Source: Halomonas sp. Bachu 37 (GTDB lineage: Bacteria; Pseudomonadota; Gammaproteobacteria; Pseudomonadales; Halomonadaceae). From it: DNA of 64,000 nt. Made by a program: the position numbers and the translations under genes. The notes beneath the pieces are model-generated. The model worked only from the letters and a program-made list of their open reading frames with translations. It did no database searches and had not been told where the DNA came from. Of this stretch, positions 45,796-57,196 are shown piece by piece (the first letter of the stretch is position 1; each line of letters opens with the position of its first letter). The stretch lies in the NCBI RefSeq assembly GCF_039691755.1, contig NZ_CP137552.1, positions 1,364,001-1,428,000 on the forward strand. Direction: 5' to 3'.

Positions 45796-45917
45796 AGCGC
45801 GTCCGTGATCTCACTTCAAGACCAAGGTAATGAAGGCTACCACCCTAGGAATTAGAGTTTGGGAAGTAAAAGGACACAACCAACGTTACCAAAGGCAATG
45901 CGCCTATTTTTATTAAT

Positions 45918-46103
45918 TCAAAAATTGAAGATAGCGCTTGGTTCGTTGGAAAAAAATCCATAGGCAACAAAAACGCCTATGCAAACAATCCCGAGCCAGC
46001 AAAGAACTTGCTTTGCAAACTTGAGCCTATCGCTTTCATCTATTGTTACCTTGCTGTCTTGGGTAAAGACAGAATTGATATCTACATTGCCTTCATCAGC
46101 CAT
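45918..46103 (-). CDS. Small single-span membrane protein paired with an RHH regulator
   Basis: Unrecognised 61-residue protein: an acidic N-terminus (MADEGNVDINSVFTQDS), a charged linker and one hydrophobic helix (VLCWLGIVCIGVFVAYGFF). Its ATG overlaps the stop of the ribbon-helix-helix gene by one base (TAATG), so the two are coupled. The arrangement (small DNA-binding protein, then small membrane protein) resembles antitoxin-toxin modules, but no toxin family is recognised. AT-richer than the surrounding chromosome. Confidence 0.6.
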   Translation of the reverse strand: MADEGNVDINSVFTQDSKVTIDESDRLKFAKQVLCWLGIVCIGVFVAYGFFSNEPSAIFNF

Positions 46104-46321
46104 TAGATACCAACCACTCGCCCGATTGCCTGGAGTTGGTGGCTCTGCGGATCTTCGCGGACGATACCGAGAGAATTCCCCTTAGCCTTTTCCTGTTCAG
46201 CAACTGACAATAGAGCAAAGGCCCTTCTCATTGCTTCAGCCTTCGTGATTCCCTCTTTACGGGCAATTTCCGTGAGCCTATCGCTAATTTCTTTAGATAA
46301 ATCAACGGTCAACCTAGACAT
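46103..46321 (-). CDS. Ribbon-helix-helix (CopG-like) DNA-binding protein
   Basis: 72 residues with a typical RHH N-terminus: SRLTVDLSKEISDRLTEIA, then KEGITKAEAMRRAFALL (strand, helix, helix). Start chosen at the ATG at 46321 with AGAGGAAA upstream. Such proteins usually bind as dimers to short repeats in their own promoter. A good promoter and two 9-bp direct repeats lie immediately upstream, and a small membrane-protein gene is coupled downstream. No transposase or integrase is nearby in the window. Confidence 0.75.
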   Translation of the reverse strand: MSRLTVDLSKEISDRLTEIARKEGITKAEAMRRAFALLSVAEQEKAKGNSLGIVREDPQSHQLQAIGRVVGI

Positions 46322-46351
46322 ACTGCTTTCCTCTGCAAGTCGTATTCCCAA

Positions 46352-46404
46352 AGGATAGCACTACATTAAAATTACTGCAAATGTACTGAAATTCCGCACT
46401 ACAT
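46352..46404 (-). promoter_or_regulatory. Promoter and direct-repeat operator of the RHH/membrane-protein pair
   Basis: On the minus strand TTGCAG (46380-46375) and TATCCT (46357-46352) are separated by 17 bases, a good sigma-70 pair 30 bp upstream of the RHH start. Two identical 9-mers GCACTACAT (plus strand 46358-46366 and 46396-46404) flank the -35 and spacer region 38 bp apart, fitting an operator for the RHH protein. Confidence 0.55.
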
Positions 46405-46411
46405 GAAAGAC

Positions 46412-46516
46412 TCATAACGCTTTTGTTCAGCGGCGACCTTTTTGTAGCGAAGCGGAGAAAAGGGCGTCCGGTGGAGGGCCGTTAGGCCCGGAGCGAACTG
46501 CAACTACTTGTTAACA
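46412..46516 (-). other. Integron-type attC recombination site
   Basis: Read on the minus strand: R'' box TGTTAAC (46516-46510), five-base spacer, L'' box GTTGCAG (46504-46498), a 67-base imperfectly self-complementary centre, L' box CTGAAC (46430-46425), six-base spacer, and R' box GTTATGA (46418-46412). L'' and L' are complementary apart from one extra base in L'', the extrahelical-base asymmetry that orients real attC sites. The stop codon of the membrane-protein gene to the right (TAA, 46513-46511) overlaps the R'' box, as in gene cassettes. The 105-bp length is within the attC range. No integrase gene is in the window. Confidence 0.8.
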
Positions 46517-47035
46517 AGCATCTGACTTACACGCATTTTCCTGACCCCACGAGTAAATATCTCTTCCAAATCTCAAGGTAGCGAAAAACGGCAATGAAAC
46601 GATGAAATAAAGAGAACGTTCCCAAACACTGTCGAAAACAAAAATTGATGATAGCAACAGGTATCCGATTCCTAGCAACGCCCCAGCAAGTAGAGAGCTG
46701 AACCAAATATTAGAAACGACTAAGCAGGGATATTTTGAGGCAGCCATTGCAGTTTCCGAGTCATCAATATCACCCAGTACCTGCAGGGCTCTACTCGTCG
46801 AAAACCAAGCTGTCATGCCCGAACCAATATACAAAACCAGGAGTACGATCTGGAGAGACTCCGCAGAGGTGAACTCGACATTCAAAAATGGAACAGTGGG
46901 AAGCGGCTTACCCTCATCCAGATGCCCCAAGTAATGCACTATCCCCGCTATCAAAAGTCCCAAATAAATAGATCGTTGGGTAAGCTTTAGAGACTCCCGA
47001 AAATTCTCTACCTGAATAGTCAGAATTGGACTCAA
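46511..47035 (-). CDS. Four-helix membrane protein, probable integron gene cassette
   Basis: Unrecognised 174-residue protein with about four predicted membrane helices (SIYLGLLIAGIVHYLG, SLQIVLLVLYIGSGMTAWF, WFSSLLAGALLGIGYLLLSS and LYFIVSLPFFATL) and little soluble sequence. Start is a TTG at 47035 with a strong GAGGAGGG six bases upstream; a TATAAT-like -10 lies at 47070-47065. Codon use is clearly AT-richer than in the flanking chromosomal genes. Its stop codon lies inside an attC site, the normal structure of a mobile gene cassette. Confidence 0.65.
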   Translation of the reverse strand: MSPILTIQVENFRESLKLTQRSIYLGLLIAGIVHYLGHLDEGKPLPTVPFLNVEFTSAESLQIVLLVLYIGSGMTAWFSTSRALQVLGDIDDSETAMAASKYPCLVVSNIWFSSLLAGALLGIGYLLLSSIFVFDSVWERSLYFIVSLPFFATLRFGRDIYSWGQENACKSDAC

Positions 47036-47076
47036 TATTCCCTCCTCGGGGGTTGTTAACAGTGATTATACGTCCC

Positions 47077-47126
47077 GCTATATAACCCTAATGAACGTGA
47101 AGGCAAATTGATTGGTGTTATATAGC
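47077..47126. repeat. 50-bp element with perfect 10-bp inverted ends
   Basis: GCTATATAAC (47077-47086) and GTTATATAGC (47117-47126) are exact inverted repeats separated by 30 bases; the inner flanks are also partly complementary. With AAC and GTT at the inner edges it resembles a short or degenerate attC site at the upstream end of the membrane-protein cassette, though the spacers are shorter than usual. Alternatively it could be an operator. The remaining bases between it and the jetD-like gene (47127-47280) hold nothing recognisable. Confidence 0.6.
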
Positions 47127-47280
47127 CACAAAAATGACTCCACCCCACTGATTCTGCTGAAAGAAAAGTCAATTTTGGCAACATAGCCAGAATTCGCGTG
47201 ACTTCGCGTTTTGCCCGCTTCAATCATACTGAACGCAAACACACAACGCGGCAATGCGCATTATGTCGACGGGGGTTGCC

Positions 47281-48162
47281 TCACACCAACGCCACGCGCT
47301 CCAGTTTTTCACCCAACCACTGCTGCCTTAGCCCGCGCTGCTGGTCGAGTAGCAGCGTTAGATACGGCTGTAGCGGATGTGCAGCGGGTAGTTGGTCGCG
47401 GTGGCGTTGCAGGCGTGGGCGGTATTCGAGCTGTTTCGCGGGGTCGTGGAACGGGGTGGCCTGCTCGGTGAGCCATCCCAGCGGCGAGAGTAATAAGTGC
47501 GAGGCGCCGCCGGAAAGTGCGATGCTGACGCCTTTGATATCGAAATCGCCTGCATAAAAGTGTGGCTTTTGGGTCGCGTTCCAGGCGCTGGCGAATTGCT
47601 TGAAGCCGCCACCATAGTGGCTATCGCCTCGGTAAACGATCAGTGGATTAGCGTAGCCGCTTAACGCTGGTAGTTCCGGCGAGAATTCATAAAAGCTGTC
47701 TAGGTTTTCAACCTGCACCAGTACATCGCACTCTTCGAGGTCGATGTCGCGCCAGCCGACGTCGTGCATCGAGCGCGGCTGGGCCGACAGCCAAGCGGGT
47801 GTGCTGGCAGGCGTGTTCACCAGCACCCGCTGGGCGCGCGGGCCTTCGCGGTTGGTTTTATCTTCGTTGACGCCCTGCTCCGCTTGCGCTGCGCTGGTCA
47901 AGCCGCTCTGCCATTGCCCGATGGTGGTCAGTCGTTGGCTTTCGAGCGCGGCGTTCACCTGCTGGATAAGGGCGCGATCAAAGCGCAGGGTTTGATGACG
48001 TAGCCCGGGGCCAAGCTCAATGTGTTGCTCATCACACCAGTGAATGAAGTCCGCTACCCACTGCTGGCTGCGTTTCTTGTCGACCCACGTCTGCTTGCGC
48101 AGCTGGCGATCCACGTCGCCAAGCTTGCTGTAGACCTTGGCCGTGAGTGTCTGATCATTCAT
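47281..48162 (-). CDS. jetD: Wadjet nuclease subunit JetD-like (TOPRIM, DUF2220/MksG)
   Basis: Predicted DNA-cleaving subunit that cuts plasmid DNA after the SMC complex has extruded it. 293 residues. The TOPRIM-like C-terminal half has the metal glutamate motif VQVENLDSFYEF (about 150-161), a following VYRGDSHYGGGFKQ and the acidic pair in AGDFDIKG (about 215-222). The N-terminal helical part (QLRKQTWVDKKRSQQWVADF) would be the DUF3322-like DNA-binding arm. Shorter than the roughly 380-400 residues I know for JetD of canonical systems. Starts two bases after the jetA-like stop. Confidence 0.75.
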   Translation of the reverse strand: MNDQTLTAKVYSKLGDVDRQLRKQTWVDKKRSQQWVADFIHWCDEQHIELGPGLRHQTLRFDRALIQQVNAALESQRLTTIGQWQSGLTSAAQAEQGVNEDKTNREGPRAQRVLVNTPASTPAWLSAQPRSMHDVGWRDIDLEECDVLVQVENLDSFYEFSPELPALSGYANPLIVYRGDSHYGGGFKQFASAWNATQKPHFYAGDFDIKGVSIALSGGASHLLLSPLGWLTEQATPFHDPAKQLEYRPRLQRHRDQLPAAHPLQPYLTLLLDQQRGLRQQWLGEKLERVALV

Positions 48163-48164
48163 CG

Positions 48165-49409
48165 TTACACCGCCAGGCCTAACGAAACGTCACGAATCAA
48201 TTTCACATCGTTGTAGGCGCTCGTCCGCTCTTCCTGCTGATAAAGGTGAAACGCGCGCTGCTCGCTGTGCGGCAGGCCTTGGTGCTCGGCAATAACCTGG
48301 AACAGCCAGATTTCGGCAGGCCATTCAAGGCCGCTTTGGTGCAGGTAATCCAGGGCGCTGATAGGGGCGTGCTCGGCGCGGTCTACCACGTTGAGGTAGA
48401 AGGTTTCGACGTCATCCTTGAGGGCCTGCTGGCGAGCGGCGACGAGCGTGTCTTCGACGTGTTCCGCCGGGCGTGCCGCGGTGACCGGCTGGGCGGCACG
48501 TGACGGGGTGGGCACATTTTTCAGCAGCGCGCTGAGGGTGGGCATGTCCTGGGCGCGGTCCAGCGCCACGGCCCCGGCGGCGGTAAGGGGTGCTGCGTGA
48601 TTGAACAGCACGGGCACCTCGCTACGGCGGGCGTAATTGCCGGGGGTGAAGTTGGGATGCTCGCGCAGGAAGGCGGCCATGCCTGCGACCAGGCGGCTGC
48701 GTGCCTGCATGCGGCGAAAACGCGCCATCAACTCGATCAGGCGGTGCTGCACCTCACGCAAGCTGGTGTAGTGCTGGCTGAGCTGCTGTTGCAGCTGGCT
48801 AATCAACACCTTGCGCAGCGTGCCGTCGCTGCCCACCAGTTCGATCAACTCGTCAAAGTCGATCAGCTCCAGCCCATCGAGCAGGCGGACCACCTGCTTT
48901 TGCGCGCGGTCGTTTTCGCGCACCTTGTCGTTGAGCTGGCTGACAAAGCCGAAATCGCTGTTGAGCCGCTGCCACAGGCTGTCGATGGCGTCGGCAAAGC
49001 GACCGTTCATGTCATCCACCGCCTGGCGCAGGCGCAACAGTTGCTGCTCCTGCTGCCAGTAGTCGCCGCGGCTGCTGGAATCGCGATAGCTCTCGATCAG
49101 GCTGCGGATCAGCTCCAGCGCCTCGGCCACATCCGCGTTGACGTGGCGCCGGGCTTCATCGGCGACCATTTCGGCGATTAGTTCGCGCACCTTGGGGGTG
49201 AGTTTGATGCCGCCCTGCTCGTCGGGCCGCCAGACAATCCGCGCGCTCAGCAGCTTGCGCAACGCGGTGTGGCTCAGCCCATCCAGGGGGACGTGATCGT
49301 TGGCGTAGCCCTGCATCAGCGCCTCGGCGTGGCGGCCCAACAGAGCCAGGCGCTCTACCCCAGTGGTGATCAGGCGGCTTTCCAGTCCTGGCGTTTCCGC
49401 GTCGTTCAC
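48165..49409 (-). CDS. jetA: Wadjet kleisin subunit JetA/MksF-like
   Basis: Predicted kleisin that bridges the SMC heads. 414 residues, entirely helical: an N-terminal winged-helix-like region (MQGYANDHVPLDGLSHTALRKLL, with TPKVRELIAEMVADEA), a long central helix bundle (YWQQEQQLLRLRQAVDDMNGRF and LQQQLSQHYTSLREVQHRLIEL) and a C-terminal domain (DYLHQSGLEWPAEIWLFQVIAEH). No enzymatic motif. GTG start overlapping the jetB-like stop (GTGA). The assignment rests mainly on size, helical architecture and operon position. Confidence 0.65.
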   Translation of the reverse strand: MNDAETPGLESRLITTGVERLALLGRHAEALMQGYANDHVPLDGLSHTALRKLLSARIVWRPDEQGGIKLTPKVRELIAEMVADEARRHVNADVAEALELIRSLIESYRDSSSRGDYWQQEQQLLRLRQAVDDMNGRFADAIDSLWQRLNSDFGFVSQLNDKVRENDRAQKQVVRLLDGLELIDFDELIELVGSDGTLRKVLISQLQQQLSQHYTSLREVQHRLIELMARFRRMQARSRLVAGMAAFLREHPNFTPGNYARRSEVPVLFNHAAPLTAAGAVALDRAQDMPTLSALLKNVPTPSRAAQPVTAARPAEHVEDTLVAARQQALKDDVETFYLNVVDRAEHAPISALDYLHQSGLEWPAEIWLFQVIAEHQGLPHSEQRAFHLYQQEERTSAYNDVKLIRDVSLGLAV

Positions 49410-50047
49410 AGTAGCGACTCCTGCGTATCCTCGCCCTCGGCCTCCACTGGCAGATGCTCTTCATCGCGAATAAAGCGCACCAGTTCGAGCAGGTAGTCGA
49501 CCTTGCCGGTGACCAGGAATACCTGGCGATCGGCGTGAGGCTGCAGCAGGTAGCCGTGCTCCCTTAATCGCTTGAACACCTGCTTGACCTGGGCATCCAA
49601 CTGGTCGCTTTGGGAACCGAAGAAGCTGTCGGTAGCGAGGCGCTCGATGCGCTCGCGCAGGCTGGGGTTATCCTCGCTTTTGGCCTGCAGCTCGCCGGGT
49701 TTGAGCACATCGCCGGGGGACAGCACGCTGTCGCGGCCCAGGGCTTCCTGCACGAGCTGCAGCCATTCCAGCAGCGGCAACAGGCTGTTGACGGTGTCGC
49801 CCAGTTGGCGGGCGAGCTGGTCCCGCGCGCTGTCATCCAACTGACGCCACGCAAGGAAATACACGCCTTCCTCCAGGCTGCTGGCCACGCGGCGGTTGAG
49901 CGGGCGCAGATAGCTGTCGATAGCCTCGCGCGTGGCGTCATCCTGCAGGCGCTTGAAGGCACTTTCATCGCTCACGGCGCAGATAAACTCGCCCGCCAGC
50001 AGCCGTTCCAGCAGCGGGCCATGGGGTAACAGACTCATATCGCTCAT
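49406..50047 (-). CDS. jetB: Wadjet KITE subunit JetB/MksE-like
   Basis: 213-residue helical protein with a winged-helix-like C-terminal part (QLDAQVKQVFKRLREHGYLLQ and DRQVFLVTGKVDYLLELVRFI), consistent with the MksE/DUF4194-type accessory subunit that binds the kleisin. It sits between the SMC and kleisin genes with four-base overlaps on both sides, so all three subunits are translationally coupled. No catalytic residues are expected or seen. Confidence 0.65.
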   Translation of the reverse strand: MSDMSLLPHGPLLERLLAGEFICAVSDESAFKRLQDDATREAIDSYLRPLNRRVASSLEEGVYFLAWRQLDDSARDQLARQLGDTVNSLLPLLEWLQLVQEALGRDSVLSPGDVLKPGELQAKSEDNPSLRERIERLATDSFFGSQSDQLDAQVKQVFKRLREHGYLLQPHADRQVFLVTGKVDYLLELVRFIRDEEHLPVEAEGEDTQESLL

Positions 50048-53000
50048 ACCGGCACCTCCTCATGGCGGGCTCTGAGCCGCTCGGCCAGGCGGCTTTGCCG
50101 GGGCTCGATGCGTTTTAGCCGCCGTTTGGCGGGGGCGTCGGCGTCGCGGTCGATCAGGTAGCGGTTGGCGAACAGTAGCAGCACGTCGGATTCCGGGTTG
50201 GGGAAGGCGCCGACAATATGAATCTGGTTGCTGTCGCAGGCCTCGAACAGCTTTTCAACGTTGTGGTAGGCCAGCGTGCCGATCTCGTCGATGGGCCAGT
50301 GGATGGCGATCGCCGCCCGCCCGCGCAGCAGCCGGGTAAACGCCAGCAGGAACTTGCACAGAATCAGATACGCCATGCCGTGGCTGGACGATTCCAGCAA
50401 CTGGCGGTCGTTCTTGATGATCAGGTCGGTGCCGCCTTCGTTGAGGTGCAGCTCCAGGCGCAGCAGGCTTTCGAAGCTGTACTGCTGGTCGCTGCGCAGC
50501 AAATCGACCACGTCCGCCAGGGCGTTGAGGTAGTCGTCGCTGGGCAGGGTCTGCTCGGAGTCGCGCCACACCTTGTAGCGCTGGGCGAACAGCTTGAGCG
50601 GGTCCCAGAAGCCGAGTTCGTCGATGGTCGACTGGATGCGCACCTCCGCCTTGCTGATACCTTCCAGGCGCAGGTCGTCGGCCACTTCATCCGAGAGGCG
50701 CTTGCTCTGGGCGCTGATGCGCCGGTTCAAATCGCGGAACACGGTGAAGAACTTATCCAAGTCGTCGCTTAAGTTGCGCCCCTGCTGAATCAGCTGTTGC
50801 TGCTGGTCTTCGAGCAGTTTGAGCATACCGCCCAGCAGTGGCAGCAGCGCCCGCGGGTCGTCGGGGTCGGCAAGCTGAGCGCGCTCGCTTTCCAGCACAT
50901 CGACAAAGCTGGTGCTGGCCCCCTTTATCAGCTGGCTCTCCGCATCCTGGCAGCCCTTGCGCAGCGTGTCGCGCTCCTGGGCCCGGCGCGAGAGTGCCTG
51001 GCGGGTGCGCGACAACCGCTCGGCGACATCGCCGGGGGCCTCCTGCTGGGGCGTGGCGTCCGAGGTCAGCGTGAGTTCATCGAGCTGCTTGAGCAGCGGC
51101 TTGAGGTCGTTGAGCATCTCGTGACTTTCGCGGCGCCTGGTTTCAAACGCGGCGACGTGCTGCTGGTGGGCCGCCTTGGTGGCTTTGAACGCCTTTTGAT
51201 GCTGCTCGCGTTGTCGCTGGGCAGCGTCTATCTCACGGCTTAAACGCCCTTCCTGCTCGACCAGTTCCGGTTTGCGCTGCCCCCAGCTCACCCGCATAAA
51301 GCGCTTGTAGGCGTCCAGCTCATCCTGACGGGCGGCGGTGTGGCGGATGTGTTCGTCCAATTGCTGCAGCCGGGCGCGGGTATCCCGCAGTTTTTCCGGG
51401 TCGACGCCCTGGGCCTTCAATTCCTGGTCGAACGCCTCTTCCAGCTCAGCGCACTGGCGCTTGTGCTCGGCTTTTTGCTCAATGAGCTGGGTCTTGTGCT
51501 GCTGAATCTGCCGGTCGATGGTAGTCAGCTGGCTTTGCGCATCGGCTTTTAACTCCAGCAGTTCCGCCTGATAGGCGGCGTTTAGCTTGTCCAGCGCGGT
51601 CTGGCGTTCGTCGCGCAGGGCTTGCTGCTGAGCTTGTTGTTCGGCCAGGGCGGCTTCGTGCCCGGCCTTGCGCTGGCGTTGCGCCTGGGCATGGCGCGCC
51701 TGGCACTGGCGGCGGGCCTCCTGGGCGTATTCGACTTCCTCATCGGCGCGCTTCACCGCCAACTGAGCCTGGCTTAGCGCTTCATCGGCGGCCTGGACAC
51801 GCTCGTTATGCCGCTTGAGCTGCCTTTCGCTGTTGCCGAGCTCGGCTTCGGCGCGCGCCACGGCGTCGTCCGCCGCTTCAATGGCGGCGAGCAGGCTGGC
51901 TTCATCCTGGGCGTAGTCCGGCGGCTCGATCAGCTGGGTATCCAGCTCCAGGCCGTAAAGGTCGTCACTGGGTGACTCCGTCAAGGTCGGCGAAAGGTCC
52001 CGGCGCTCCAGCAGCTCCGGGGCAATCACCTTACCCAGCCGCTGTTCCCATCCGGGCAGGTGGTAGCGCAGAAAATGCCGCAGCGATCCTTGCGCGGGGT
52101 CGCGCTGGCGGTGCAGCGCCTGGCTGGTTTGCTGGGCGCGGGTAAGCGTTCGGCGGGCATCCGCGTGGGCCTGTTCGGCGCTATCGCGTTCGCGCTTCAG
52201 GCCATCCAGCTCGCGGCGCTGGCTTTCCCGCTGGCTGCTGGCAGCGTTGTGGTCGCTTTGCGCCTGGTCGATTCGCGCTTGAACCAGGGCGGCCTCTTCG
52301 CTTTCCTCCGCCGTCAGACCGCTGTGGCTAAGCGCGGCTTTCAGCGCCGCCAAGCGCTCAACTCCTTGGTTGAGGCGTGCCTGAAAGTCGGCTTCTGCCT
52401 CTTCACGCTGGGCCTGGTTGCGGGCGTCCAGATGGCGCTGGGCCTCCCAGTGGGCTTCCTGATGCGCGGCCTTTTCTTCGTTGAGGCCATCGACCAGCCC
52501 TTGTATTTCTTCACCCTGGCGGGCCAGCGCTTCGCCCAGCTCACGCAGCCGCTCTTCCTTGAGGATTTGACTTGCCTGGTTGGCCTCTTGTAAGTCGGCC
52601 AGATGGCGTTTTAGCTGCTCGAACTGCTCGCGTTTTTGGGGCAGCGCGTTGAGGTCACGCTCAAGGGCGGGCATGTCCGCTGCCTCATAAGCTTCAAATT
52701 GCGTCTGAAGGTCGCTCAGGTCACGCTGGGTTTGCTTGAGGCCGCTTTCCAGCTCGCTAAGCTGTTCATTCAGGTCATCGCGGGCCGCCTCGTAGGCGTT
52801 CTTCTCGTCGTCGAATGCCTCTTGTCGTGCGCCCATTTCGGCTTCGGCATCGGCCAGGGTGCGCTCGATGTGGTGGCGGTCGGCTTCCAACTGCGGTTTC
52901 AGCTGCCAGAGTGCGGCCTCCACATCCGCCAGCTCACGGTCAACGTCGTGCAGCTTGGCAAGCGAGCGTTGCAGCGGCTCCAGACGCATGGATTGGCGCA

Positions 53001-53727
53001 TCTGGTCGATCCACTCCCGAGCCTTGGCGCTGCGGATGCGGGTCACGGGCAGCTCGACGCCGTCCTCTTCAAAGATCGCCGCCAGCATGGTCTTGAGGGT
53101 ATCCATCTTGCCCTCTTTGGCATGCACCGCCGAGACCAGCTTTTCGATATGGCGGATACGGTGATCGGGCTTGACCAGGCTGAACTGCGCGGCCAGCTGG
53201 CGCAGCTTGAGGGCGTCCTTACGATTGCCGTAGGGCATGATGCCTGGCGTGGGGGTAAAGTCGTTCTGGATTACCGCGCGATATTCCGAGGTGGCCGTGA
53301 GCTTGAACGAGACGTTGAGGTTCTCCCGGCGCAGGCCGTTGGCCCACTGGGCGTACTCCAGCGCCACCGCACCACTTTCGCTCTCCACCAGATAATCCTC
53401 TGGCCGGTAAGGCGCGCCGACGAAGCGGTACTCCACCCCGCCTTCGGCTTTGCGGGTCAGCACCGCCTGGCAGATATTGCCCGCTTCGCGGCGATATTCG
53501 TACACCAGGTAGCTGTTGCGATGAGGCAGGTAAAACGCATCGAACTTCATGCGGGTTTTAGGCACTACCTTATTGGGTAGCTCGCCGTAGAACACCGGCA
53601 CCAGGCGCTGTAGCGTGGTCTTGCCGGAGGCGTTGGTGCCGCAGATATTGGTGTGGCCATCCACACTCAGTTCCACCACCCCTTCCAGGTGGCCGTGAAT
53701 CATCACGATGCGTAGCAGGTGGGCCAT
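50044..53727 (-). CDS. jetC: SMC/MukB-like ATPase, Wadjet JetC-like
   Basis: Predicted loop-extruding SMC ATPase. 1227 residues: Walker A GTNASGKTT at 30-38 inside a characteristic N-terminal head (VDGHTNICGTNASGKT, then FYGELPNKVVPKTR), long coiled coils from about 240 to 1010 with a hinge-like interruption near 530-620 (LRHFLRYHLPGWEQRLGKVI, SDDLYGLELD), and the C-terminal head with ABC signature-like ESSSHGMAYLI and Walker B WPIDEIGTL. ATG preceded by AAGGAC. First gene of the operon, whereas canonical Wadjet operons start with jetA. Confidence 0.8.
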   Translation of the reverse strand: MAHLLRIVMIHGHLEGVVELSVDGHTNICGTNASGKTTLQRLVPVFYGELPNKVVPKTRMKFDAFYLPHRNSYLVYEYRREAGNICQAVLTRKAEGGVEYRFVGAPYRPEDYLVESESGAVALEYAQWANGLRRENLNVSFKLTATSEYRAVIQNDFTPTPGIMPYGNRKDALKLRQLAAQFSLVKPDHRIRHIEKLVSAVHAKEGKMDTLKTMLAAIFEEDGVELPVTRIRSAKAREWIDQMRQSMRLEPLQRSLAKLHDVDRELADVEAALWQLKPQLEADRHHIERTLADAEAEMGARQEAFDDEKNAYEAARDDLNEQLSELESGLKQTQRDLSDLQTQFEAYEAADMPALERDLNALPQKREQFEQLKRHLADLQEANQASQILKEERLRELGEALARQGEEIQGLVDGLNEEKAAHQEAHWEAQRHLDARNQAQREEAEADFQARLNQGVERLAALKAALSHSGLTAEESEEAALVQARIDQAQSDHNAASSQRESQRRELDGLKRERDSAEQAHADARRTLTRAQQTSQALHRQRDPAQGSLRHFLRYHLPGWEQRLGKVIAPELLERRDLSPTLTESPSDDLYGLELDTQLIEPPDYAQDEASLLAAIEAADDAVARAEAELGNSERQLKRHNERVQAADEALSQAQLAVKRADEEVEYAQEARRQCQARHAQAQRQRKAGHEAALAEQQAQQQALRDERQTALDKLNAAYQAELLELKADAQSQLTTIDRQIQQHKTQLIEQKAEHKRQCAELEEAFDQELKAQGVDPEKLRDTRARLQQLDEHIRHTAARQDELDAYKRFMRVSWGQRKPELVEQEGRLSREIDAAQRQREQHQKAFKATKAAHQQHVAAFETRRRESHEMLNDLKPLLKQLDELTLTSDATPQQEAPGDVAERLSRTRQALSRRAQERDTLRKGCQDAESQLIKGASTSFVDVLESERAQLADPDDPRALLPLLGGMLKLLEDQQQQLIQQGRNLSDDLDKFFTVFRDLNRRISAQSKRLSDEVADDLRLEGISKAEVRIQSTIDELGFWDPLKLFAQRYKVWRDSEQTLPSDDYLNALADVVDLLRSDQQYSFESLLRLELHLNEGGTDLIIKNDRQLLESSSHGMAYLILCKFLLAFTRLLRGRAAIAIHWPIDEIGTLAYHNVEKLFEACDSNQIHIVGAFPNPESDVLLLFANRYLIDRDADAPAKRRLKRIEPRQSRLAERLRARHEEVPV

Positions 53728-53864: not shown

Positions 53865-54887
<1,023 letters not shown>

Positions 54888-55030
54888 TTAAGGGAAACCT
54901 AGATTTGTGTCGCGAGCGACGAGAGGCTGGTCGCTGCCGGAGCAGAGCTGCCGGAGTGTAGCCTGCTACATGAGGACAGCGAGCACCGCCAGCGGCCAGG
55001 ATATCGAGCACAGCAACAAATCGAGCTTTC

Positions 55031-57196
55031 CTAGAGGGTGCAGGAGACGCAGCCCTCGACTTCCGTTCCTTCCAGCGCGGTCTGACGCAGGCGAATGTAA
55101 TAGAGGGTCTTGATGCCCTTGCGCCAGGCGTAGATCTGCGCCTTGTTGATATCGCGGGTGGTCGCGGTATCGGGGAAGAACAAGGTCAACGACAGCCCCT
55201 GATCGACATGCTTGGAAGCCTCGGCGTAGGTATCGATGATCTTCTCGGGACCGATTTCGTAGGCGTCCTGGTAATATTCGAAATTGTCGTCGCTGAGGTA
55301 AGGCGCGGGGTAGTAGACGCGCCCCAACTTGCCCTCCTTGCGTATCTCGATCTTGGCCGCGACCGGGTGGATACTCGAGGTGGAGTGGTTGATATAGGAG
55401 ATCGACCCCGTGGGCGGCACCGCCTGCAGATTGCGGTTGTACAAGCCATGGGCCATCACCGATGCCTTGAGCGCTTCCCAGTCCTGCTGGTCGGGGATGG
55501 CGATCCCGGCTGTCTCGAACAAATCGCGCACCTTGTCGGTACGGGGCAGACAAGGCTGCTCGGTATATTGGTCGAAGAACTCGCCACTGGCGTATTTCGA
55601 TTCGGCAAAACCAAAAAAGCTCTCGCCCTTTTCGATGGCCATGCGGTTCGAGGCCCGAATGGCATGATAAGCCACGCAGTAGAAATAGAGGTTGGTGAAA
55701 TCGAGCCCTTCGTCGGAACCGTAGAAGATGCGCTCGCGCGCCAGGAAGCCATGCAGGTTCATCTGCCCCAGGCCGATGGCGCGCGACTGGGCATTGCCCT
55801 GGGCGATCGAAGGCACCGAACTCAGGTTGCTCATCTCCGAGACCGCAGTGAGCCCGCGCACGGCGATCTCGACACTGGTACCGATATCACCACTATCCAT
55901 TACCTTGGCTATGTTCATCGAGCCCAGGTTGCAGGAGATATCCTGGCCGACATGGCGATAGCCCAGGTCTTCGTCGTACTCGGTCGGAGTATTGACCTGC
56001 AGGATTTCCGAACACAGGTTGCTCATGTTGATACGTCCGGCGATGGGATTCGCGCGGTTGACCGTATCTTCGAACATCAGGTAGGGATAACCGGACTCGA
56101 ACTGCAGTTCGGCCAGGGTCTGGAAGAATTCACGCGCCTTGATCTTGCTCTTGCGGATGCGACCGTCGGCGACCATTTCGTGGTACTTCTCGGTAACGCT
56201 GATATCGCCGAACGGTACGCCGTAGATACGTTCCACATCGTAGGGCGAGAACAGGTACATGTCCTCGTTGCGCTTGGCCAGCTCGAACGTTATGTCGGGA
56301 ATCGTCACACCCAGCGAGAGCGTCTTGATGCGGATCTTCTCGTCGGCATTCTCACGCTTGGTGTCGAGAAAGCGCAGGATGTCCGGATGGTGGGCATTGA
56401 GGTAGACCGCCCCCGCACCCTGGCGCGCGCCCAACTGGTTGGCGTAGGAGAATGCGTCTTCCAGCAGTTTCATGATCGGAATGATGCCCGACGACTGGCT
56501 CTCGATGCGCTTGATCGGCGCGCCGAATTCGCGGATGTTGCTGAGCAGGAAAGCAACTCCACCGCCGCGCTTGGAGAGTTGCAAGGCCGAATTGATGGAA
56601 CGACCGATGGACTCCATGTTGTCCTCGATCCGCAGCAGGAAACACGACACCAGCTCACCGCGCTGGCGCTTGCCGCAGTTGAGGAAGGTAGGAGTAGCGG
56701 GTTGGAAGCGGCCGCTGATGATCTCGTCGACCAGTGCGCGTGCCAGGGTCTCGTCGCCACGCGCCAGCGAGAGTGCCACCATGCAGACGCGATCCTCGTA
56801 ACGTTCAAGGTAACGCTTGCCATCGAAGGTCTTCAGCGTATAGCTGGTGTAGTACTTGAAGGCACCGAGGAAGCTGGGGAAGCGAAACTTGTAGGCATAA
56901 GCCTGCTCGAACAGCGACTTGATGAAGGCGGGTTCGTATTGCTCGAGCACCTGCGCCTCGTAGTACTCCTCCTCCATCAGATAGTCGAGTTTCTCTTCCA
57001 GCGAGTGAAAGAATACCGTGTTCTGGTTGACGTGCTGGAGAAAGTACTGACGCGCCGCCTCGCGGTCGCGTTCAAGCTGCAACTCACCGTTCGGCCCATA
57101 GAGGTTGAGCATGGCGTTGAATGCATGGTAATCCAGGGCACGTCCCCCTGAAGTTCCGGCATCGTGGCGTGGCGTGGCTAGGCTTGTCGTTTCCAA
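55031..57196 (-). CDS. nrdE: Class Ib ribonucleotide reductase, alpha subunit NrdE
   Basis: Catalytic subunit reducing ribonucleoside diphosphates. 721 residues: [17 protein letters not shown] region, radical-chemistry segment ([10 protein letters not shown]), [22 protein letters not shown] and the C-terminal redox pair CVSC next to the end. It lacks the N-terminal ATP cone of class Ia enzymes, as usual for class Ib. Starts 19 bases inside the nrdI 3' end. Confidence 0.95.

Follow-up and report, generated by a model that had tools for sequence, protein, structure and literature searches.

Wadjet systems (JetABCD/EptABCD, types I to III) and MukBEF-type complexes are structural maintenance of chromosomes (SMC) machines that move on DNA with ATP, and TOPRIM dimers of the JetD type cut bent DNA. 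Wadjet types I to III consist of an SMC, a KITE and a kleisin subunit together with a TOPRIM nuclease of JetD fold, in which the TOPRIM acids are a glutamate and a DxD motif. A nuclease-free complex, the MksBEF of Pseudomonas aeruginosa, likely arose via JetD loss (available text of PMC10586767). Here, we report a four-gene operon that has this subunit set and these acids in common with Wadjet, found in Halomonas sp. Bachu 37 on the minus strand at 47281-53727 of a 64,000-nucleotide stretch of contig NZ_CP137552.1 (positions 1,364,001 to 1,428,000; hereafter the window). The operon would be an SMC-first relative of JetABCD/MksBEFG. We consider it somewhat probable that it encodes a Wadjet-like complex in which SMC, KITE and kleisin form a core with a job independent of the nuclease, probably like that of a condensin, and in which the altered nuclease is an accessory that can be dispensed with; the near-fixed chromosomal locus, the changed C-terminal motif and the recurrent nuclease loss described below together point to nuclease independence of the core.

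All four open reading frames (ORFs) are open at the coordinates in Table 1, in the order SMC-KITE-kleisin-nuclease. The SMC/KITE and KITE/kleisin junctions overlap by 4 bp each, and the TOPRIM gene follows the kleisin gene after a 2-bp gap; an earlier note on this DNA had described four overlapping minus-strand genes, which holds for the number of genes and the first two junctions and not for the third. The SMC protein is DUF3584 over nearly its full length (PF12128, 762 bits across residues 8-1193), with Walker A GTNASGKT at residue 30, SHGM at 1115 and WPIDE at 1144, so that the Walker A, signature and Walker B motifs of the proposed SMC ATPase are all present in the 1227-aa protein. On the SMC tree it sits among Halomonas/Vreelandella (95% identity to H. 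llamarensis). The KITE-size protein stayed below cut-off with both MksE (PF21980, 25.4 bits; cut-off 27) and DUF4194 (PF13835, 21.7 bits; cut-off 32.7), and its counterpart in relative L226 lies above the MksE cut-off (28.6 bits). No credible family match to the kleisin-size protein was obtained in profile scans, and its predicted fold resembles MukF; the two partners (213 and 414 aa) agree with the KITE and kleisin sizes noted earlier. PDB sequence searches with the nuclease, SMC and kleisin profile gave no credible hit, neither the nuclease nor the kleisin model reached an E-value of ≤0.001 with Foldseek alone, and the fold assignments of these two proteins rest on VIA-align 2. Of Smc-ScpAB only ScpA was looked for (profile search); it is present in the same genome, and a normal Smc-ScpAB condensin is inferred from it.

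The four-gene arrangement is not due to chance. The same order was found in 29/31 genus loci (the SMC being full-length in 28 of them and partial in one), the other two being a locus with only a nuclease fragment and a contig that begins after the SMC, and the order is identical at three distant chromosomal loci; this comparison across genomes bears out the SMC-first order, unlike jetA-jetB-jetC-jetD, to which the earlier note had drawn attention. By profile search, DUF7281, the family of the window nuclease, is present in 32/37 genus genomes (Bachu 37 included) and in 13/369 genomes drawn from the class (11 above cut-off), where JetD_C was found in 54/369 and DUF3584 in 17/369 (10 above cut-off). 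Among the five genus genomes without DUF7281, G017 has an SMC fragment at a contig edge and the other four have no SMC match. In G015 (L051:6395-8869), the SMC match begins only at residue 398. A further set of named loci, the best 80 of 226 SMC relatives among 360 stretches scanned, comes from Halomonas, Vreelandella, Chromohalobacter, Onishia, Billgrantia, Modicisalibacter and Halovibrio, and also from Ectothiorhodospira (62% SMC identity), Marinospirillum (53-54%) and Rheinheimera (48%). The clade that includes the window is mainly chromosomal and comprises Halomonadaceae, Marinospirillum, Ectothiorhodospira and others; some transfer occurred within it, because Ectothiorhodospira is nested in the Halomonas SMC clade.

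The last protein of the operon matches DUF7281 at 52.5 bits (cut-off 27), and its predicted fold groups with MksG, JetD and topoisomerase VI-A (Top6A) in a comparison that barely covers residues 1-105. The TOPRIM fold expected in the earlier note was found in the predicted structure of this 293-residue protein, and the acids of its VENLDSF and GDFDIKG motifs were located at E152, D206 and D208, which are invariant in 24/24 and 20/20 aligned DUF7281 proteins (overlapping sets) and kept in 64/64 intact named relatives. It is also about 100 residues short, as had been remarked (293 aa against 390-408 aa for canonical JetD). Neither JetD_C nor DUF3322 matched it, and no JetD_C was found anywhere in the genome; the two canonical JetDs tested carry both domains.

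The C-terminal motif of the window protein is R279-Q280-Q281, with no EQE. The corresponding QQ was read in 31/31 readable genus rows (one a remnant), in 64/64 intact named relatives and in 3/3 of a further family, that of G404; the genus and named sets share organisms, and their counts are not additive. Outside the clade the motif is QE in 9/9 DUF7281 proteins, and it is QE in 6/6 from plasmid records. EQE was found in 3/3 solved JetD/MksG sequences and, among 30 JetD_C loci, in 25, the five others having a JetD frame that was not read out. A forced-end profile alignment places JetD RLEQE opposite the C-terminal QE of DUF7281 and Q280-Q281 of the window in low-confidence columns, an alignment supported by the similar spacing from the DxD motif in JetD and DUF7281. 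In it, Q281 takes the position of the Glu in other DUF7281 proteins and of the second Glu in JetD EQE. Two glutamates of JetD that have been proposed as alternative nucleophiles correspond to E349/E351 of MksG (excerpts of PMC10123090). When DUF7281 (20 rows) and canonical JetD (14 rows) were compared as profiles, the ENL...GDxDxxG stretch matched with Prob 91.7 and E 7.7e-7, and Prob fell to 5-24 with only the six QE rows; two QQ-type relatives, L230 (24.6 bits) and L232 (35.2 bits), exceed the JetD_C cut-off of 22.

Loss of the nuclease is recurrent. In the 80 named loci it is intact in 64, absent in 9, broken in 3 (L154, L196, L199) and undeterminable in 4; L131, L151, L177 and L183, where the contig ends before the nuclease, were dropped before losses were counted. 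Nuclease state changes at least 10 times on the SMC tree (quick maximum-likelihood tree, 80 rows scored), 7 times without rows from metagenome-assembled genomes or uncultured organisms (70 rows), and 6 times when the broken ones are also left out. A 40-codon relic of the nuclease start stands directly after the kleisin gene in L152, by which loss is shown there, and no nuclease was found in the genomes of the other 8/9 loci scored as absent. The G404 family has the SMC in 27/59 genomes and DUF7281 at the operon in 3; the 9 nuclease-less loci read, out of 24, hold SMC, KITE-size and kleisin-size genes alone. In L154 (L154:12539-17344) the nuclease gene is split by an insert of ~6 kb, which holds a 1324-aa ORF with a weak PADLOC match to PDC-S73; in L199 it is split by ~5 kb.

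Ratios of nonsynonymous to synonymous divergence (dN/dS) were compared in six clades, using only pairs with dS of 0.02-1.5. Median values per clade were 0.036-0.187 for the SMC, 0.023-0.102 for the KITE, 0.041-0.142 for the kleisin and 0.092-0.375 for the nuclease. Selection constrains the nuclease as it does an ordinary neighbouring gene, and the SMC core to an unusual degree. Strong purifying selection on the core persists without the nuclease (dN/dS 0.017-0.09 in 6 pairs of nuclease-less Chromohalobacter and 1 pair of nuclease-less Onishia), at values similar to those of an Onishia pair with the nuclease (0.034-0.085), and ATPase motifs are intact in 20/20 complexes with an absent or broken nuclease. 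In the G404 family, the three-gene clade is too diverged for nearly all such comparisons. Distances of SMC, KITE and kleisin are mutually correlated at r 0.97-0.99, and those of the nuclease with them at 0.83-0.85 (19 rows). Against the neighbouring RNase Z-like gene (rnz), the SMC core gave r 0.57-0.61 and the nuclease 0.27, a value reached by 119/2000 permutations; the correlation of the core being only moderate, vertical descent is not established by it.

Recurrent loss and breakage of the nuclease, replacement of its C-terminal Glu and the MukF-like kleisin would also fit a plain MksBEF-type condensin with the TOPRIM gene as an inert evolutionary leftover. This is quite improbable, since E152, D206, D208 and Q280-Q281 are kept in 64/64 intact relatives at SMC identities down to 53% and the median dN/dS of the nuclease is 0.09-0.38, on both of which grounds the nuclease is selected for in most lineages. 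A dead nuclease was ruled out by the retained metal acids and QQ motif.

The cassette also occurs on plasmids. The window SMC matches 37 plasmid records, all at <60% identity (23-28% in the 15 listed); one of the 37 covers at least 80% of the SMC query, and 15 are predicted conjugative. The same four-gene order, with DUF7281 above cut-off, was found in 6/6 plasmid records read, one of which (L243, 939 kb) could be a mislabelled chromosome piece. The cassette genes are annotated as ATP-binding or hypothetical proteins, and PADLOC gave traces only for six cassette proteins from four of the six records; the point of interest is that a four-gene cassette on plasmids predicted conjugative draws only trace matches from the PADLOC 2023 models. 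The window nuclease itself had no match in plasmid records. With its Glu-bearing nuclease, the version on plasmids and in scattered genomes would most likely act in a Wadjet-like manner against rival circular DNA.

DUF7281 was also seen after shorter SMCs (917 and 936 aa) in the classic kleisin-KITE-SMC order (L040:9269-14758 and L044:1174-6567), and the nuclease family therefore seems to work with a second type of SMC complex as well; a similar arrangement may exist in L041 and L042. At L045:5119-10656 and L240:9255-13005, a DUF7281-like protein, ending in LEQEA in L240, seems to stand before an SMC-like protein (956-978 aa).

Table 1. Features of the operon and its downstream flank, in window coordinates
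Feature	Position	Strand	Basis
SMC ATPase, MksB/JetC-like, 1227 aa, DUF3584, first gene	50044..53727	-	PF12128 and ATPase motifs
KITE-size subunit, MksE/JetB-like, 213 aa	49406..50047	-	Sub-cut-off Pfam matches
Kleisin, MksF/JetA/MukF-like, 414 aa, GTG start	48165..49409	-	Predicted fold
TOPRIM nuclease-like subunit, MksG/JetD-like, 293 aa, DUF7281, last gene	47281..48162	-	DUF7281 match
TOPRIM metal-binding acids, E152 (VENL) to D206/D208 (GDFD)	47539..47709	-	Invariant in aligned DUF7281 proteins
Codons of Q280-Q281 (QQW motif)	47320..47325	-	Motif counts and low-confidence JetD alignment
Interval between operon and RNase Z-like gene	45796..47280	.	Variable, partly defence-type cargo in relatives

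The interval between the nuclease gene and rnz varies in content among 24 genus loci. PADLOC was applied to 15 proteins, chosen from 22 interval ORFs of at least 279 aa, and gave 9 strong matches, 1 weak match and 5 without a match. The strong matches (HEC-04-like and OLD/AAA-type ATPases, a TIR effector, a type IIG restriction-modification [R-M] enzyme, DRT, AbiEii, LmuA, LmuB and PDC-S06) are spread across 7/24 loci (L055, L057, L059, L060, L062, L076, L078). In the window's own interval, two of whose proteins were scanned, no defence-type gene was recognised; for this reason, and because no other interval was scanned, a "defence hotspot" here is only suggestive. The adjoining Lamassu, DRT, type IIG R-M, AbiEii and TIR genes of relatives would suit a system against phage, or another abortive one, that has nothing to do with plasmids and uses the SMC complex as its sensor, yet the window nuclease matches none of 50,697 phage records and its nearest studied relatives act on plasmids (as far as the accessible sections of PMC10123090 go), which leaves this explanation very improbable. 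Between the operon and rnz, the window (45918-47035) holds a ribbon-helix-helix (CopG-type) protein, a 61-aa ORF and a 174-aa ORF, the last without a credible match in profile scans. Directly upstream of the operon (53865-57196) lie genes judged by eye to be ribonucleotide reductase-like; a search of the 80 named loci did not find the small-subunit gene in them.

The same surroundings bear on whether the operon is a working Wadjet-like anti-plasmid system, in which Gln281 is tolerated and the losses are turnover of a costly defence gene. Metal acids kept throughout the 64 intact named relatives, a median nuclease dN/dS of <0.4 (like that of rnz), defence-type genes adjoining in 7 of the 24 loci and related cassettes on plasmid records all speak for it. 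Set against these, a core that stays intact and constrained without the nuclease is unexpected if its sole job is to feed that nuclease, DUF7281 is missing at the operon in 24/27 SMC-bearing genomes of the G404 family, and near-fixed presence (DUF7281 in 32/37 genus genomes) is unusual for a defence system. We hold a working anti-plasmid system to be rather unlikely, although not negligibly so.

Several observations weigh against our preference for a nuclease-independent core. Median dN/dS of the nuclease and of rnz was 0.189/0.184, 0.092/0.226 and 0.130/0.111 in three clades; with these rnz-like values and the strictly kept QQ motif, the nuclease is not decaying in most lineages. Defence genes in the adjoining variable interval of several relatives fit ordinary defence. 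Parsimony alone gives no direction of loss or gain, loss being direct only in the L152 relic and the interrupted genes, and the losses could reflect plasmid acquisition or self-damage and not a changed role. An SMC match is missing in 5/37 genus genomes, G029 among them, so the core too can be lost. At the G029 locus (L067:11316-11894), only a 192-residue nuclease piece was found; the locus gave no match to KITE or kleisin, and the whole genome none to the SMC.

Family and fold suggest an ATP-driven, loop-extruding motor of MukBEF type, built from the SMC dimer, the kleisin and the KITE, and a fourth protein that is a TOPRIM dimer of the JetD/MksG/Top6A type and would cut bent DNA presented by this motor. 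In the window's clade, the SMC core would most likely be a second, MksBEF-like condensin beside Smc-ScpAB; the nuclease, with its metal acids kept and Gln for the C-terminal Glu, would have altered chemistry and be optional and repeatedly lost. We tentatively add a further idea, which we regard as unlikely, that a defence-to-housekeeping transition is in progress: a mobile SMC-first plasmid-cutter becoming a fixed chromosomal condensin by way of a stage (the window) in which the nuclease, its active site altered from Glu to Gln, serves the chromosome, followed by repeated nuclease loss. At that stage, the Gln-type nuclease could be a sensor of DNA bends or topology, a nickase or a topoisomerase-like SMC subunit. 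Retention of the motor with repeated loss of the nuclease in close relatives may illustrate the way in which a machine for defence evolves into one that organises the chromosome. Because one SMC core has Glu-type, Gln-type, broken and no nuclease among its relatives, the idea that MksBEF comes from JetD loss is testable here.

Among described systems, MukBEF shares only the resemblance in kleisin fold; no MukB, MukE or MukF Pfam match was found in the window proteins, and the window genome also has ScpA. Topoisomerase VI-A/Spo11 shares the predicted fold group of the window nuclease. Q281 would at most be a candidate counterpart of Top6A E342, which, judged from the Top6A motifs, may instead align with the first Glu of JetD. 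The E342Q change in Top6A increases DNA breakage (according to excerpts of PMC13040014). In Corynebacterium glutamicum, the MksBEFG operon has the order mksFEBG (partial text of PMC10123090). Sequence alignment pairs neither E349 nor E351 of its MksG with an acidic residue of the window protein. P. aeruginosa MksBEF, with a gene order that is presumably F-E-B, has no nuclease, whereas the window operon still has a nuclease gene. As a nuclease-free SMC-KITE-kleisin core, that complex is like the nuclease-less relatives (on the available portion of PMC10586767), and the three-gene form may have been described before under the name MksBEF. For the window itself, a nuclease-free MksBEF condensin was ruled out by the open and conserved TOPRIM gene.

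The comparison with Wadjet is the closest. No description of a DUF3584 plus DUF7281 SMC-first family was found among the open-licence papers listed for Wadjet, MksBEF, DUF3584/DUF7281 and Halomonas. Wadjet genes run kleisin-KITE-SMC-nuclease, in contrast to SMC-KITE-kleisin-nuclease in the window; JetD is DUF3322 plus JetD_C and ends in EQE, whereas the window nuclease, a DUF7281 protein ~100 aa shorter, lacks DUF3322 and has RQQ; and the window operon, unlike Wadjet, is near-fixed on the chromosome. For the window SMC, a DUF3584 protein, JetC profiles gave no more than trace matches. Jet profile searches of the window proteins gave traces only, namely a weak PADLOC JetC1 match of the SMC (E 6.7e-5; 42 residues, 1-42) and matches to JetC3 (0.0056), JetC1 (0.01) and JetD3 (0.0025), and three canonical JetDs match the PADLOC JetD1 models at 1e-138 or better. 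With a DUF7281 nuclease, trace Jet matches and neither JetD_C nor DUF3322, the earlier statement that this gene set defines Wadjet anti-plasmid systems could not be upheld, and Wadjet I, II and III were ruled out by gene order and profiles. Its suggestion of a less-studied subtype fared better: with profiles outside Wadjet I-III, the DUF3584 plus DUF7281 SMC-first cassette is probably an undescribed subtype.

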